Below the pieces are notes generated by a model, which had not been told where the DNA came from, did no database searches, and saw only the letters and a list, made by a program, of their open reading frames with translations. DNA of 37,972 nt, from IMG/VR virus record IMGVR_UViG_3300005355_000390, positions 1 to 37,972 of that record; one strand, written 5' to 3'. The position numbers and the translations under genes were made by a program. This document shows positions 1 to 37,972 of this stretch, piece by piece; the stretch's first letter is position 1; every line of letters starts with the position of its first letter. This stretch comes from a virus.

Positions 1-18
1 CAGCTGAGCTACGGGCGC
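1..18 (-). tRNA. 5' end of tRNA-Arg, continues outside the window
   Basis: Read on the minus strand this is the acceptor strand GCGCCCG, then TA, then the start of the D arm GCTCAGCTG. It equals the first 18 nt of the tRNA half at 37760-37801. The remainder lies left of the window, so this is presumably the copy rebuilt as a complete tRNA-Arg(TCG) by integration, with its 5' part supplied by the phage. The tRNA identity comes from the anticodon loop seen in the right copy. Its upstream DNA is phage sequence, so the host tRNA now depends on phage promoters. Confidence 0.75.
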
Positions 19-69
19 CCCGTTAACTGATTCTGCCACAGTGGGTTGGGTCGTGTCCTTCGGTCGCAT
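1..69 (-). CDS. int: Integrase N-terminal fragment (int-N), split by integration
   Basis: An ATG at 69-67 is preceded by a strong Shine-Dalgarno GAGGAGG (82-76) with a 6 nt spacer. The frame reads MRPKDTTQPTVAESVNG and then APVAQL through the tRNA-derived sequence to the window edge. The right-end integrase frame reads the same APVAQL through its tRNA half and continues into the catalytic protein. Joining the two at the shared core gives an integrase of about 336 residues. I infer that this is the real start of int, used in the excised circle and detached by integration. In the prophage this start instead reads into the rebuilt tRNA gene. Confidence 0.8.
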   Translation of the reverse strand, partial: MRPKDTTQPTVAESVNGAPVAQL

Positions 70-98
70 TTCGTTCCTCCTCGAATCCAATGCTCACG

Positions 99-114
99 TG
101 TACAGACATTGTAC
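99..114. promoter_or_regulatory. Operator overlapping the int -10 box
   Basis: TGTACAGACATTGTAC has GTAC arms at both ends. Its reverse complement contains ACAATGTCTGTACA, which occurs identically at 6365-6378, and the core TGTCTGTACA recurs at 6321-6330. The site covers the int -10 box, so a bound protein would be expected to block int transcription. The repressor is not proven; the ribbon-helix-helix gene at 4973-5140 is the best candidate. Confidence 0.6.
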
Positions 115-136
115 GGTGAAAACTTCGGAGGGTCAA
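108..136 (-). promoter_or_regulatory. int promoter
   Basis: On the minus strand TTGACC (136-131), 17 nt, then TACAAT (113-108), each differing from the sigma-70 consensus at one base. Transcription would start near 101 and run through the Shine-Dalgarno at 82-76 into the int start at 69. In the prophage the same transcript would run into the rebuilt tRNA-Arg. Confidence 0.75.
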
Positions 137-241: not shown

Positions 242-886
242 ATGAGGATTCAGAAGGTATTACCGGCCCTCCTGCTGATGCTTGCAACACTTTTCGCCGG
301 GGATGTGGCCACCGCGGACGCGCTCGAACTGGACCGACTCCGCACCCTCGTTGGCGTTGACATCAGTACCCCCGTCATCATCGGAGCAGGCGCCCTGCCT
401 CCTTCGGTTCCGCTCCGAATCTTTGTGGTTACGTGGCCAGAAAGCATCGACCGGCAGGCACTGCTCGCTCGCAGCGAAGAATGGAATGAGAGTCGTAAGG
501 GGAAGAAGTACGGGCGGATTAGCATCGTCGCCGACGCATCCGAAGCAGACATCATCCTCGCGTCATGGACTGATAGGGGAGACGTCACAACCTCCACCCG
601 TGTTGTTTCTGGGACTAATACGGTCTACGTCCCGTCCGGAGTCAAAGGCGTTCGGGGCACGTATCAGGCCGTGCCCACGGTCTCTTCTTATGACGCAACG
701 AGCATTCCCGTCTACAACTACGTGATTTCTGTTCGTGAGGGTGGCATCCACATACATGGCCGTCACGTCTTGCAGGTCAGTCAATCATCCCTGACGGGCG
801 CTTTTGACGATCTGTGGGAAGGTGTAACCCAGGCCCTGAAAAAACGGGGTAACATCAAGCACCTATCGAAGGGCGAAGAGCCGTAG
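242..886 (+). CDS. Exported hypothetical protein
   Basis: A 214-residue protein starting MRIQK with a hydrophobic stretch (about residues 7-24, ending near ADA) typical of a cleavable signal peptide, so it probably acts outside the cytoplasm. No lipobox cysteine follows. The mature part alternates short beta-like segments and charged turns, with a Val-rich middle; no known catalytic motif was seen. A purine-rich GGAG lies about 9 nt before the ATG. It stands alone on the plus strand and meets the HNH gene tail to tail with only 4 bp between stops. Its position next to the attachment site fits a lysogenic cargo gene, but the function is unknown. Confidence 0.6.
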   Translation: MRIQKVLPALLLMLATLFAGDVATADALELDRLRTLVGVDISTPVIIGAGALPPSVPLRIFVVTWPESIDRQALLARSEEWNESRKGKKYGRISIVADASEADIILASWTDRGDVTTSTRVVSGTNTVYVPSGVKGVRGTYQAVPTVSSYDATSIPVYNYVISVREGGIHIHGRHVLQVSQSSLTGAFDDLWEGVTQALKKRGNIKHLSKGEEP

Positions 887-890
887 GACA

Positions 891-1472
891 TCAGACGCCC
901 TTCCAGGTCTTGTCCTTCACGATCAGACGGACGGTGTCGTAGCTGACGCCGAACTGCCGCGCCAGCTCCGCGATCGAATCGCCGACGAGGTAGTTCATGC
1001 CGATCGCGATGACCTCCGCCCGCCCGAGCTTGGCCGCCGCATTGTGCTGGCCGTCGTTGCGCTTCAATCCCATCCGGCAGGCGTGCTTCATGTTTTCGCT
1101 CGCGGTGCAGAATTCGAGATGGTCGATCGAGTTGTTCTCTCGGTTTCCGTCAATGTGATTGATCTGGTGCCCATCCGGTCGCGGACCGTGGAAAGCCAGT
1201 AGGACCAGGTTGGCTACCCAATGCCGGACGGCACGGCCGTCGGAGTACAGCTGGACGCAGAGGTAGCCCTTGCCGTCCCGCCAGGGTCGAATCAGCTTCC
1301 AGCTCCCACGGCCGCAGGAGCGAACCCTCCCTAAGCTCGAGACCTCGTAGAGATCTGAGAACTGGGGGAAGGGGACCGCCCGCCATTCCTCGCCGGGTTC
1401 GGAGAGGGGCTTGGGTGGCCTAAGTGGGTGAACGTCGTGTAGCGGAGTCGGTTCCTGTAGTTCGTGAAGCAT
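891..1472 (-). CDS. HNH endonuclease with NUMOD4 and helix-turn-helix
   Basis: A 193-residue protein with three recognisable parts. An N-terminal NUMOD4-like segment (about 28-75: EEWRAVP, LYEVSSLGRVRS) is followed by an HNH core (about 85-130) with the signature INHIDGNRENN, DHLEF and SENMKH, and a C-terminal helix-turn-helix (about 150-188: SIAELARQFGVSYDTVRLI). This architecture is typical of phage homing-type endonucleases that nick or cut DNA. The ATG at 1472 is chosen because it lies one base after the stop of the preceding gene; the longer frame upstream overlaps that gene. It is the last gene of the sigma-fragment operon. It could be a free-standing homing enzyme or have a role in packaging; the former is more usual. 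Confidence 0.88.
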   Translation of the reverse strand: MLHELQEPTPLHDVHPLRPPKPLSEPGEEWRAVPFPQFSDLYEVSSLGRVRSCGRGSWKLIRPWRDGKGYLCVQLYSDGRAVRHWVANLVLLAFHGPRPDGHQINHIDGNRENNSIDHLEFCTASENMKHACRMGLKRNDGQHNAAAKLGRAEVIAIGMNYLVGDSIAELARQFGVSYDTVRLIVKDKTWKGV

Positions 1473-1473
1473 T

Positions 1474-1761
1474 TCAGACCTCGTCTTCGTCGGGCTCGTT
1501 GTTGCAGCCCACTTCTTCCGCGTACCTGTCGCAGGCACACGGATCTGCCAGGGCCAGCTGAAAGATCAGCCCGCCTCCAAACTCGCGGAGAGTCAGATAT
1601 GACCCTTCCGGGATGACCTGAACGACTTGCCTGACGTGCTGGCCAAGGATGCAGACGCGCTGTGCTTCGAGAACTTGGCCGAGCTGTGTGTCGCGGGTTC
1701 TGAAACGGATGCCGTGACGCGCTCCCATCTGTTGTAGCCAGTCGGGCACTTCCTTGATCAT
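1474..1761 (-). CDS. Hypothetical protein in the sigma operon
   Basis: A 95-residue protein not recognised. It has three cysteines near the C-terminus (CACDRYAEEVGC) followed by an acidic tail NEPDEDEV; the cysteines could bind metal, which is a guess. Its ATG overlaps the stop of the upstream region-2 gene as ATGA, and its own stop is one base before the HNH start, so translation is probably coupled along the operon. Confidence 0.6.
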   Translation of the reverse strand: MIKEVPDWLQQMGARHGIRFRTRDTQLGQVLEAQRVCILGQHVRQVVQVIPEGSYLTLREFGGGLIFQLALADPCACDRYAEEVGCNNEPDEDEV

Positions 1762-2123
1762 CTATTCCGCTTCCATCGGCGACGTGTCGAAGCCGGGATG
1801 CGAATCAGGTCGCGCGAAGAGCCGACAAGTTCACCGATGCGGGAACGCAGTCGGCGCGCGAGACAAGTTCCAAACCTTGCGTTCGGCGAGCAGTCGCGGA
1901 TCACGTCGTAGCTGAGCAGGACCCCCTCGTTGACGAGGTCTTCAACGGAATATGCCGCGCATGCGTAAGGCGTCACCGTGTCCCGGATCAGCCTGAGGTT
2001 CGAGAGGATTAGCCGGCGCGCAGCCTCGTCATCACCGCCGCGGGCGGCCTCGATGAGACGAGCTTCCTCGTCGGCGTTGAGCGGCGGGTTCGCGTCGATC
2101 ACATCCGCAGGGAAGGGAGTCAT
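1758..2123 (-). CDS. Sigma-70 region 2-only protein B
   Basis: A 121-residue protein whose body follows sigma-70 regions 1.2 to 2.4: DEEARLIEAARGGDDEAARRLIL (about 18-40), NLRLIRDTV (region 2.1), VEDLVNEGVLLSYDVI (region 2.2, the core-RNA-polymerase-binding helix) and LRSRIGELVGSSRDLIRIP (regions 2.3-2.4 and the start of 3). It stops soon after the basic tail RRRWKRNR and has no region 4. The ATG at 2123 overlaps the upstream stop as ATGA; a longer in-frame extension would overlap the neighbour and looks non-coding. It lies beside a second region-2 protein and a region-4 protein, so it is probably one module of a divided sigma factor. It may compete with or modify protein A. Confidence 0.72.
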   Translation of the reverse strand: MTPFPADVIDANPPLNADEEARLIEAARGGDDEAARRLILSNLRLIRDTVTPYACAAYSVEDLVNEGVLLSYDVIRDCSPNARFGTCLARRLRSRIGELVGSSRDLIRIPASTRRRWKRNR

Positions 2124-33929: not shown

Positions 33930-35624
33930 ATGAACACCCTCTACTACGGTGACAACTTGGACGTGCTCCAGCGCTACGTGAAGGACGAGACCGTAGACCT
34001 CGTTTACCTCGATCCTCCCTTCAACTCCAACCAGGGTTACAACGTCCTGTTCGCGGAACACGGCACGCGGTCTGGGGCTCAGATCAAGGCCTTCGAAGAC
34101 ACCTGGGAGTGGAACCTCGACGCGGAGGCTGCATACACGGACGCTGTGGAGCGGGGCGGGAAGGTATCCGAGGTCATGCGGGCGTTCATGACCTTCCTCG
34201 GCACCAGCGACATGATGGCGTACCTGTGCATGATTGCTCCGCGACTCGTGGAGCTTCGCCGAGTAATGAAGCCAACGGCCTCGATCTACCTGCACTGTGA
34301 CCCGACGGCCAGTCACTACTTGAAGATGTTGATGGACGGAGTATTTGGTCCCACGAATTTTCAGAACGAGATCTTGTGGAAGCGGACAACCGCCCATTCC
34401 GACGCGAAGCAAGGTGCAACTCACTTCGGACGGATTCATGACGTCATTCTTTTCTACAGGCGTGGCCAAACCTCAGTGTTCAATGTTCAGTACACCACCT
34501 ACGACGAGACCTACATGCGCAGTCACTACCGGCATGTCGAAGAAGGCACCGGAAGGAGATACAGAAAGGGAGACTTAACAGCTAACAAGCCGGGTGGCGA
34601 CACAGAGTACGAGTGGAAGGGCGTGAGGCCGTACAAGGGAAGATACTGGGCCTACTCCAAAGAAAAAATGCAAGAGTTCGAAACGCAGGGTCGTCTCGTG
34701 TATACACGAACGGGAATGCCTGAGTACAAACGTTACTTGGATGAAATGCCAGGCAGTCCCGCGCAAGACGTGTGGGACGACATCTCCCCGATCAATTCTC
34801 AGGCTCAGGAGAGACTTGGATTTCCGACCCAAAAACCAGAAGCTCTTCTGGAAAGGGTGATCAAGGCGAGTAGCAACGAGGGCGATCTTGTTCTCGATCC
34901 CTTCTGCGGATGCGGAACGGCTGTCTCTGTAGCTCAGCGGCTAAACCGTCGTTGGGTGGGGATCGACATCACTCACCTTGCGATCAACTTGATCAAGCGT
35001 CGTCTACAGGATACTTTCGGCGAATCGGTAAAGGAAACCTACAGCGTGGTCGGTGAACCCAAGGATCATGGAGGGGCTGTCGCACTCGCCGAACTAGACA
35101 AGTACCAGTTCCAGTGGTGGGCTCTTGGCTTAGTGCATGCCCGGCCCGCCGAGCGGAAAAAGGGCGCTGATCGGGGTATCGACGGAAGACTTTTCTTCCA
35201 CGATGAGAAGAAGTCGCTTGATCGAACGAAACAGATAATGATCTCCGTTAAGGGCGGTGGCACGTCTGTAAAGGACATTCGTGACTTGATCGGCGTGCTG
35301 ACGAGGGAAAAGGCGGAGATTGGGGTATTGATCACACTTCAGGAGCCGACTCGTGACATGCTTCGTGAGGCAGCAGAAGCTGGCTTCTACGCCTCGCCCT
35401 TCACGGCCAGCCGGCACCCCAAGGTTCAAATCTTCACAGTTGCGGATCTACTCGGGGGGAAAGAGATCGACTACCCGCGTATCCGTGCCGAGGTCACCTT
35501 CAAGCAGGCGCCGCGGGCAGTGGCAGAGCCGGAAGGTGAACCCACGCTTCCATTGGAGGGATTTGGGCCGACAGGGCATGGACCAGTAAAAAAGACACGA
35601 AAGCGCCACGATGAAGATGTCTGA
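33930..35624 (+). CDS. DNA methyltransferase fused to an Mrr-like nuclease
   Basis: A 564-residue protein. The methyltransferase part has motif [10 protein letters not shown] (24-31) before motif [11 protein letters not shown] (322-331) and IGID-type [10 protein letters not shown], the beta-class order of N4-cytosine/N6-adenine enzymes that use S-adenosylmethionine. Residues about 388-510 look like an Mrr catalytic domain: [21 protein letters not shown] (D414, D418), IMISVKGG (K441), VLITLQEPT and [12 protein letters not shown]. One chain may thus modify and cut DNA, as in some type II fusion enzymes. It begins the plus-strand half of the cassette; its end overlaps the next gene by 14 bp. Confidence 0.85.
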
Positions 35625-36841: not shown

Positions 36842-37801
36842 TCACTCCTTCTTCGTGTTCAGGATCTGATCGAGATGGGAGGACGCCGAGCGCACGACCT
36901 CGTCCGCCAGATGCGAGTACCGCTGGACCATCGTCATCGTCTTCCAACCGCCCAGTTCCTTCACGACCTGGAGCGGGACGTTGCTGGAGACGAGGATCGA
37001 CGCGAAGGAATGACGGCACGTGTGGAACGTCACGCCGTCCGGGTCGTTGCGCCCCCACTTCAGCCCCGCCGCGGCAACGGCCTTGGGCATGAACCGCCGG
37101 ATGCTGCTCTTCGCGCACCCACCCTCCGGGCCGGGGAACAGCAGCGCGTCGGCCGGTCCGAGGACACGCCGGGCCTCACAGTACTCGAGCAGCCAGCCCT
37201 CCACCGGGAACTTCCGGATCTCGCCGTTCTTCGTTGGCGCGATGAGGTAGGCGCGGCCTGTCCCGTCCGTCTCGAAGTCCGACACCCGCAAGCCGGTCAG
37301 CTCAGAGAGCCTGAAGCCCGTCCCCACGCCCGCACGGATGATCACCTGGAGCCAGTTCGGCGCCTTGGAAACGATCGCGTCCACCTCCTTGGGGCGGAGC
37401 CACCGAGTCCGGGCGTTGCGGACGATGGGCTTCTTCACCTTCGCGCACGGGTTGCGGAAGATCCAGTCCCGGGTGACCGCGAACGAGAAAAGCGCCGACA
37501 GGACCCGCAGGGCTTGGTGCCGGGAGGCCGGCTTGTAGTTGTGCGCGGTCGTCGCCTCGTCCAGGATCGCTTCGACGTCGTCGGGGGTGATGCTGCTGAG
37601 CGCCCGGTCCTTCAGGACGGGGAGCCAGACGGCCGAGAGGTAGAAGTAGTTCCGGATGTTGCGGCCCTCAGCCTTTTTGGATCTGAGGAACCGCTCGAGC
37701 GCCGTGCCGAAGGTCGGACCCTCGTAGACCGGTGCCGACGGGAGATCCCGGGGCTGCCCGGCTTCGAAGGCCAATGCTCTATCCAGCTGAGCTACGGGCG
37801 C
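36842..37801 (-). CDS. int: Tyrosine integrase, main part (int-C)
   Basis: The frame is open from the host side through the tRNA half (APVAQLDRALAFEA) into a tyrosine recombinase. It has an N-terminal core-binding domain (FGTALERFLRSKKAEGRN) and a catalytic domain with TGFRLSEL (R), APTKNGEIRKFP (K), TFHTCRHS (H, R), LGGWK (W) and VQRYSHL (Tyr nucleophile), in order. No ATG or GTG start with a ribosome site lies in the element part; TTG at 37774-37772 is the only near candidate. Its true start and promoter are at the left end (69 and 108-136), joined in the excised circle to give about 336 residues. Confidence 0.88.
   Translation of the reverse strand, partial: APVAQLDRALAFEAGQPRDLPSAPVYEGPTFGTALERFLRSKKAEGRNIRNYFYLSAVWLPVLKDRALSSITPDDVEAILDEATTAHNYKPASRHQALRVLSALFSFAVTRDWIFRNPCAKVKKPIVRNARTRWLRPKEVDAIVSKAPNWLQVIIRAGVGTGFRLSELTGLRVSDFETDGTGRAYLIAPTKNGEIRKFPVEGWLLEYCEARRVLGPADALLFPGPEGGCAKSSIRRFMPKAVAAAGLKWGRNDPDGVTFHTCRHSFASILVSSNVPLQVVKELGGWKTMTMVQRYSHLADEVVRSASSHLDQILNTKKE
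37760..37801 (-). pseudogene. 5' half of tRNA-Arg(TCG) left at the right junction
   Basis: 42 nt on the minus strand fold as acceptor strand GCGCCCG, TA, D arm, and anticodon arm TTGGC-CTTCGAA-GCC with anticodon TCG. After GCC the sequence turns to GGGCAGCC and no T arm follows, so only the 5' half remains. It marks the right attachment junction. Confidence 0.85.
37784..37801. repeat. Attachment-site direct repeat, right copy
   Basis: CAGCTGAGCTACGGGCGC is identical to 1-18 and ends exactly at the tRNA 5' boundary. The repeat may extend further leftward in both copies, but the left one is cut by the window edge. Confidence 0.85.
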
Positions 37802-37814
37802 GCGGGAATGGGAT

Positions 37815-37842
37815 CTTAAAGCAGAGGAAGGAATTGCGGCAA
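37815..37842 (-). promoter_or_regulatory. Original host tRNA-Arg promoter
   Basis: On the minus strand TTGCCG (37842-37837), 16 nt, TTTAAG (37820-37815), about 14 bp before the tRNA 5' end. In the prophage it would transcribe the orphan tRNA half and then int-C. It is host sequence. Confidence 0.45.
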
Positions 37843-37972
37843 TGGGAGCCCCAGTGCCGACGCTGTCACAGCGGCCGGTGCGCGAGGCGGCACGGTGCCC
37901 ATGAGCGGCGTCCGGGGCCGTGATCCCGGATGTTGGCGGAGGTCGATGCGATGGACTAAGCTCGAAGCGCAT

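Follow-up and report, generated by a model that had tools for sequence, protein, structure and literature searches.

Organization of the locus

The window, by which we mean the whole stretch of DNA that was analysed, is the entire IMG/VR virus record IMGVR_UViG_3300005355_000390 (37,972 nt), which is classed as linear and comes without flanks; the evidence base is this single metagenomic record (n = 1). Matches to terminase, portal, head, and tail proteins mark it as a tailed virus, and the terminase, portal, and head matches are to bacterial-virus families. One of the head-protein matches is a distant one to a Bacillus phage. Judged on this gene content, the record is likely to represent a temperate tailed bacteriophage with a bacterial-type gene set.

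A long open frame at the right end (int-C, Table 1) matched PF00589 (4.6e-22) and PF22022 (1.2e-5) and no other domain. The catalytic residues (R164, K191, H260, R263, and Y295) are conserved in alignments, and the int product is assigned from its sequence to the tyrosine recombinase (integrase) family. Close to int, positions 33930-35621 (plus strand) encode an N6/N4 DNA methylase (PF01555, 8.3e-42) fused to an Mrr-like endonuclease domain (PF04471, PF22722), possibly a one-piece restriction-modification protein. Just within the left end lie a homing-type endonuclease gene (NUMOD4 and HNH_3; 891-1538, minus strand) and a 214-aa ORF (242-886, plus strand) with the N-terminus MRIQKVLPALLLMLATLFAG, which is apparently secreted and had no family match. 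This ORF adjoins attL and is a candidate cargo gene expressed in the lysogen.

Table 1. Features at the two ends of the window
Feature	Position	Strand	Basis or remark
Left core copy, tRNA-Arg 5' end	1..18	-	exact 18-nt repeat; truncated by record end
int-N: ATG and first 23 codons of the joined integrase	1..69	-	17 codons element-specific (19-69), 6 core
Shine-Dalgarno (SD) sequence GAGGAGG	76..82	-	6 nt ahead of ATG at 69-67; perfect AGGAGG
In-frame TGA stop	94..96	-	8 codons ahead of int ATG
Sigma-70-like promoter TTGACC-17 nt-TACAAT	108..136	-	10/12 consensus matches
int-C: remaining integrase with core-binding and catalytic domains	36842..37801	-	PF00589, PF22022, alignments, predicted structure
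5' half of tRNA-Arg(UCG)-like gene	37760..37801	-	acceptor 5' strand, D arm, anticodon loop CTTCGAA
TTG start candidate	37772..37774	-	weak SD, -3.1 kcal/mol; sole common in-frame start between the right-flank terminal ATG and the folded domain
Right core copy	37784..37801	-	exact 18-nt repeat
Presumed host DNA upstream of the split tRNA	37802..37972	-	int frame open to ATG at 37972

A repeat at both ends corresponds to part of a tRNA-Arg-like gene

Both ends of the window carry the same exact 18-nt repeat, CAGCTGAGCTACGGGCGC, which corresponds on the minus strand to the 5' end of a tRNA-Arg(UCG)-like gene. The right copy follows the tRNA for 42 nt, past the anticodon loop (UCG), and then departs from the expected anticodon stem. 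On the outer side, the identity of the two cores ends exactly at tRNA base 1. A matching 5' half pattern is present in the full tRNA-Arg genes of locus L006 and other loci. What the record itself displays of the tRNA is the exact repeat and the one 42-nt 5' half; an intact tRNA would lie to the left of the record. Of the three frames through this half, only that of the integrase is open; in it the half reads APVAQLDRALAFEA. The original prediction of a bacterial phage integrase read through the 5' half of a tRNA agrees with this and with the bacterial-virus families noted above.

Start signals at the left end

A near-consensus promoter at the left end and a GAGGAGG placed 6 nt before an ATG at 69 had been predicted, and both are present. 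Promoters as good as this one were expected 0.1 times on average in shuffles of the 400-nt left end. Its orientation is across attP and into int, and it is predicted that it would drive int in the circle. The duplex with the anti-SD sequence at ATG 69 (-11.8 kcal/mol) was the strongest of the starts compared, the 15 other start sites in the window ranging from -8.6 to +0.9 kcal/mol (median -5.6). When the left end was resampled 200,000 times under a first-order Markov model, an in-frame ATG with a 6/6 SD and a frame open to the core arose in 0.12% of the resamples, and any start with an SD of at least 5/6 in 6%. The in-frame TGA just upstream means that the int-N ORF cannot begin much further upstream.

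The joined integrase

When the ends were joined in silico (right end to core plus left end), a stop-free frame of 336 aa resulted, with the core at codons 18-31. The left-end frame therefore enters the tRNA-derived core in the frame of the integrase, and the length of about 336 residues that had been predicted for the product was confirmed. attP would thus lie in the N-terminal coding region of int, with promoter, SD, and start codon at the far end, where integration would separate them from the enzyme, as was also predicted. We regard this anatomy (repeat, junction, and start signals) as well supported for the single record from which it was read.

The folded part of the enzyme begins after the junction. 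In comparison with lambda integrase, int-C from residue 35 onward aligns to lambda from residue 83 onward; hence the core-binding domain is nearly complete, and an arm-binding domain is lacking both before and after integration. The match to a profile built from 29 distant relatives begins within the tRNA-encoded segment, at residue 21 of the joined protein, where confidence is weak; positions 1-51 of the profile (the arm-binding region) have no counterpart. AlphaFold2 placed the core-binding domain at pLDDT >90 from about residue 31, with high confidence for the catalytic domain as well, and modeled the residues encoded by the tRNA half as a helix of their own, at low confidence; the model also has a disordered linker.

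Predicted consequences of integration

We consider it reasonably likely that the phage uses the 5' half of a host tRNA-Arg(UCG) gene as its insertion site and that its attP is located within the coding region for the int N-terminus. While the phage is a free circle, expression from the left-end signals (promoter, SD, and ATG) would run via the tRNA-derived core into int-C to give the 336-aa integrase. Recombination at the core would then leave these signals, together with 17 codons, at attL and a promoterless, startless enzyme body at attR. A loss of 23 codons, together with promoter and start, had been predicted. The loss of promoter and start is upheld by the sequence; the codon count is not, because six of the 23 codons (69 nt) to the left of the join belong to the repeated core and would be retained at attR. 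As the folded domains and catalytic residues are all in the retained part, what would be lost is expression and not the enzyme.

Without the left end, the integrase at attR has no well-supported start. The in-frame candidates are the TTG listed in Table 1, a CTG at 37786, and an ATG at the last base of the record (37972), 171 nt upstream in presumed host DNA. The promoter scan of the right flank upstream of the split tRNA found no site above threshold; a weak promoter-like sequence, TTGCCG-18-TAAGAT (8/12), was read there by eye and falls under the scan threshold. The int frame remains open through this flank for 57 codons, but at that composition such openness is expected 58% of the time, and the open frame was therefore dismissed as coding evidence. 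The record ends on the ATG of the resulting 376-aa ORF, which crosses the presumed host flank, as if it had been trimmed at a predicted gene start, and a gene caller would call a chimeric host-phage integrase at this end.

One alternative is that the promoter is an ordinary state-dependent int promoter, that attP is mostly non-coding, and that int starts within int-C, at TTG 37774 or another non-ATG codon, with ATG 69 opening a leader ORF. Such promoter switching without coding fusion is known from ICEKp1 and ICEclc (PMC13023037), and a leader would also fit with the first 20 residues of the joined integrase, which the family profile fails to recognize, and with the later beginning of the folded domains. 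Against this, the internal TTG and CTG are predicted to pair with the anti-SD at -3.1 and +0.6 kcal/mol as compared to -11.8 kcal/mol for ATG 69; and a leader need not share the frame of int free of stops through the tRNA and linker, yet this one does. We therefore consider a leader ORF unlikely.

Another possibility is that the left-end promoter serves the tRNA rebuilt at attL and that the SD, ATG, and matching frame are coincidental. Restoring a tRNA 5' half does indeed oblige an element to bring a promoter. In a comparable prophage at a tRNA-Arg(CCG) gene (L055/L032, IMGVR_UViG_3300019124_000022), the repeat takes in at least 70 nt ahead of the tRNA, so that this element holds a duplicate of the DNA upstream of that gene. 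A tRNA has no need of an SD or ATG, however, and an in-frame ATG with a perfect SD would occur by chance in only about 0.1% of cases; moreover, the tRNA and int roles of the promoter are compatible. Coincidence is thus very unlikely. Still more improbable is that the cores do not form an att pair and that the left end is another tRNA-Arg gene or the contig a chimera. In favor of this, the left end displays just 18 nt, all conserved tRNA sequence, before the record stops, and the right end coincides exactly with the start of an ORF, as trimming to a gene boundary would produce. Against it, the acceptor-stem strand GCGCCCG also matches, identity ends precisely at tRNA base 1, int is next to the core, the usual layout of a prophage, and the joined frame is unbroken.

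If the phage integrates through the core as we propose, the topology would exchange promoters between the two genes: the phage int promoter should take over transcription of the tRNA rebuilt at attL, and int-C should end up behind the host tRNA promoter. We therefore put forward, tentatively, that one promoter has two jobs, expressing the whole integrase in the circle and the rebuilt tRNA-Arg after integration, while the int body is left without start signals. Were this true, integration would be a one-way expression switch with no repressor required at int. A further suggestion is that a phage which rebuilds the 5' half of a tRNA has to supply its host with a promoter.

Under the proposed splitting, int expression is predicted to collapse once the phage has integrated; a weak TTG start would still lie behind the possible host tRNA promoter. 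Weighing against the model is that excision requires integrase, which the model removes, and this raises the question of how a prophage of such design ever excises. Low-level translation from the TTG, integrase supplied in trans, or rare events are conceivable routes.

Search for relatives and second cases

No relative closer than ~32% was found in single-protein scans of viral and genome contigs or in tblastn searches of phages and plasmids, and a terminase search for close relatives found none. An alignment scan collected 80 distant integrases, mostly enterobacterial-like. It had also been suggested that related prophages be searched for the same frame-preserving junction; we searched, and found no relative that has it.

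The exact tRNA half had no match in other records. A looser pattern of it retrieved 58 loci, none with an integrase frame across the tRNA half, and the 45-nt half, where it occurred in phage records, mostly belonged to tRNA genes. Of the 191 tRNA D arms present in the fetched IMG/VR loci, only the one in the window is crossed by an integrase frame; likewise, none of the 96 integrase ORFs tested, besides that of the window, spans a tRNA D arm. Two scans of the whole of IMG/VR, for a D arm 410-470 and 470-530 nt ahead of a TGxRxxE motif, retrieved 12 loci; in each of them the tRNA was intact and no integrase frame spanned it. The two scans cover elements with that spacing and a common D-arm sequence, and many of the fetched loci are redundant, so that the survey is a limited one.

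Partial tRNA 5' halves were seen near integrase genes in other arrangements. In Pseudomonas phage PPpW-3 (L264), an unannotated, non-coding 38-nt match to a tRNA-Arg 5' half (2501-2538) lies about 300 nt from the integrase gene and is likely an attP in a tRNA 5' half. In another locus (L021), a partial tRNA 5' half (2009-2047, plus strand) sits just past the 3' end of the integrase ORF, a layout opposite to that of the window.

Comparison with known systems

According to a 2021 review of archaeal recombinases, self-disrupting integrases are exclusive to archaea and carry PF16795 (PMC8371274). The locus resembles these SSV-type elements (type I, "suicidal"; SSV1, pTN3, and pT26-2) in a predicted attP in the N-terminal part of int and a probable tRNA target, with a core of ~40 nt and an int that would be whole only in the circle (PMC8371274). 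The likeness to SSV that was originally predicted holds in these respects, attP lying inside the N-terminal int with the frame kept in the in silico join. It fails in others. Phage_integr_3 (PF16795) was not among the domains found, which were PF00589 and PF22022 only; the bacterial-virus families, the sigma-70-like promoter, and the SD speak against an archaeal host; and the enzyme fold is not cut. Unlike the SSV-type elements, this is a bacterial-type tailed phage that carries the 5' half of its tRNA, and its attP precedes all the folded domains and leaves the enzyme body uncut, a milder arrangement than that of SSV. Membership in the archaeal SSV group was thus rejected on domain and phage gene content.

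The nearest bacterial precedent is Myxococcus phage Mx8, which was missing from the precedents first named for this locus (SSV and mycobacteriophages). The authors of Islander noted that the integrases of Mx8 and SSV extend across attP (PMC4383910), and integration gives the Mx8 int a new 3' end, after which the enzyme stays active with changed specificity (PMC6070905). Shared with Mx8 are the bacterial type of the phage, an attP within the int coding sequence, and an int that integration would alter (PMC6070905; PMC4383910). In Mx8, attP is in the 3' part of int and the C-terminus is altered, whereas here the core is close to the N-terminus and it is the 5' end of int, with promoter, SD, and ATG, that would be removed.

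ICEKp1 and ICEclc have circle-specific int promoters, with the coding sequence intact in both states (PMC13023037). As in those elements, a far-end promoter would drive int in the circle alone, and int would lie beside a host tRNA gene when integrated (PMC13023037); the promoter here is directed across attP into int, as seen from its orientation in the sequence. The difference is that here the start codon and first codons would move too. Mycobacteriophages with integration-dependent immunity, for which attP is inside the repressor gene, likewise use an attP within coding sequence as a state switch (PMC9934374). Their split gene is the repressor, interrupted at its 3' end, and not the integrase, and a typical mycobacteriophage core includes the 3' half of a tRNA (PMC10865867). 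The tRNA-Arg(CCG) prophage described above is similar in that a fragment of tRNA-Arg, its 5' half, precedes int and points the same way. Unlike in the window, its repeat reaches beyond the tRNA, and stops part the tRNA fragment from int, leaving no coding fusion.

The window combines a far-end promoter with a far-end start codon, at the N-terminus and by way of the 5' half of a tRNA. This placement of attP would spare the enzyme fold and cut expression only, and a bacterial int that starts across attP would show that the self-interrupting design arose outside the archaeal family.
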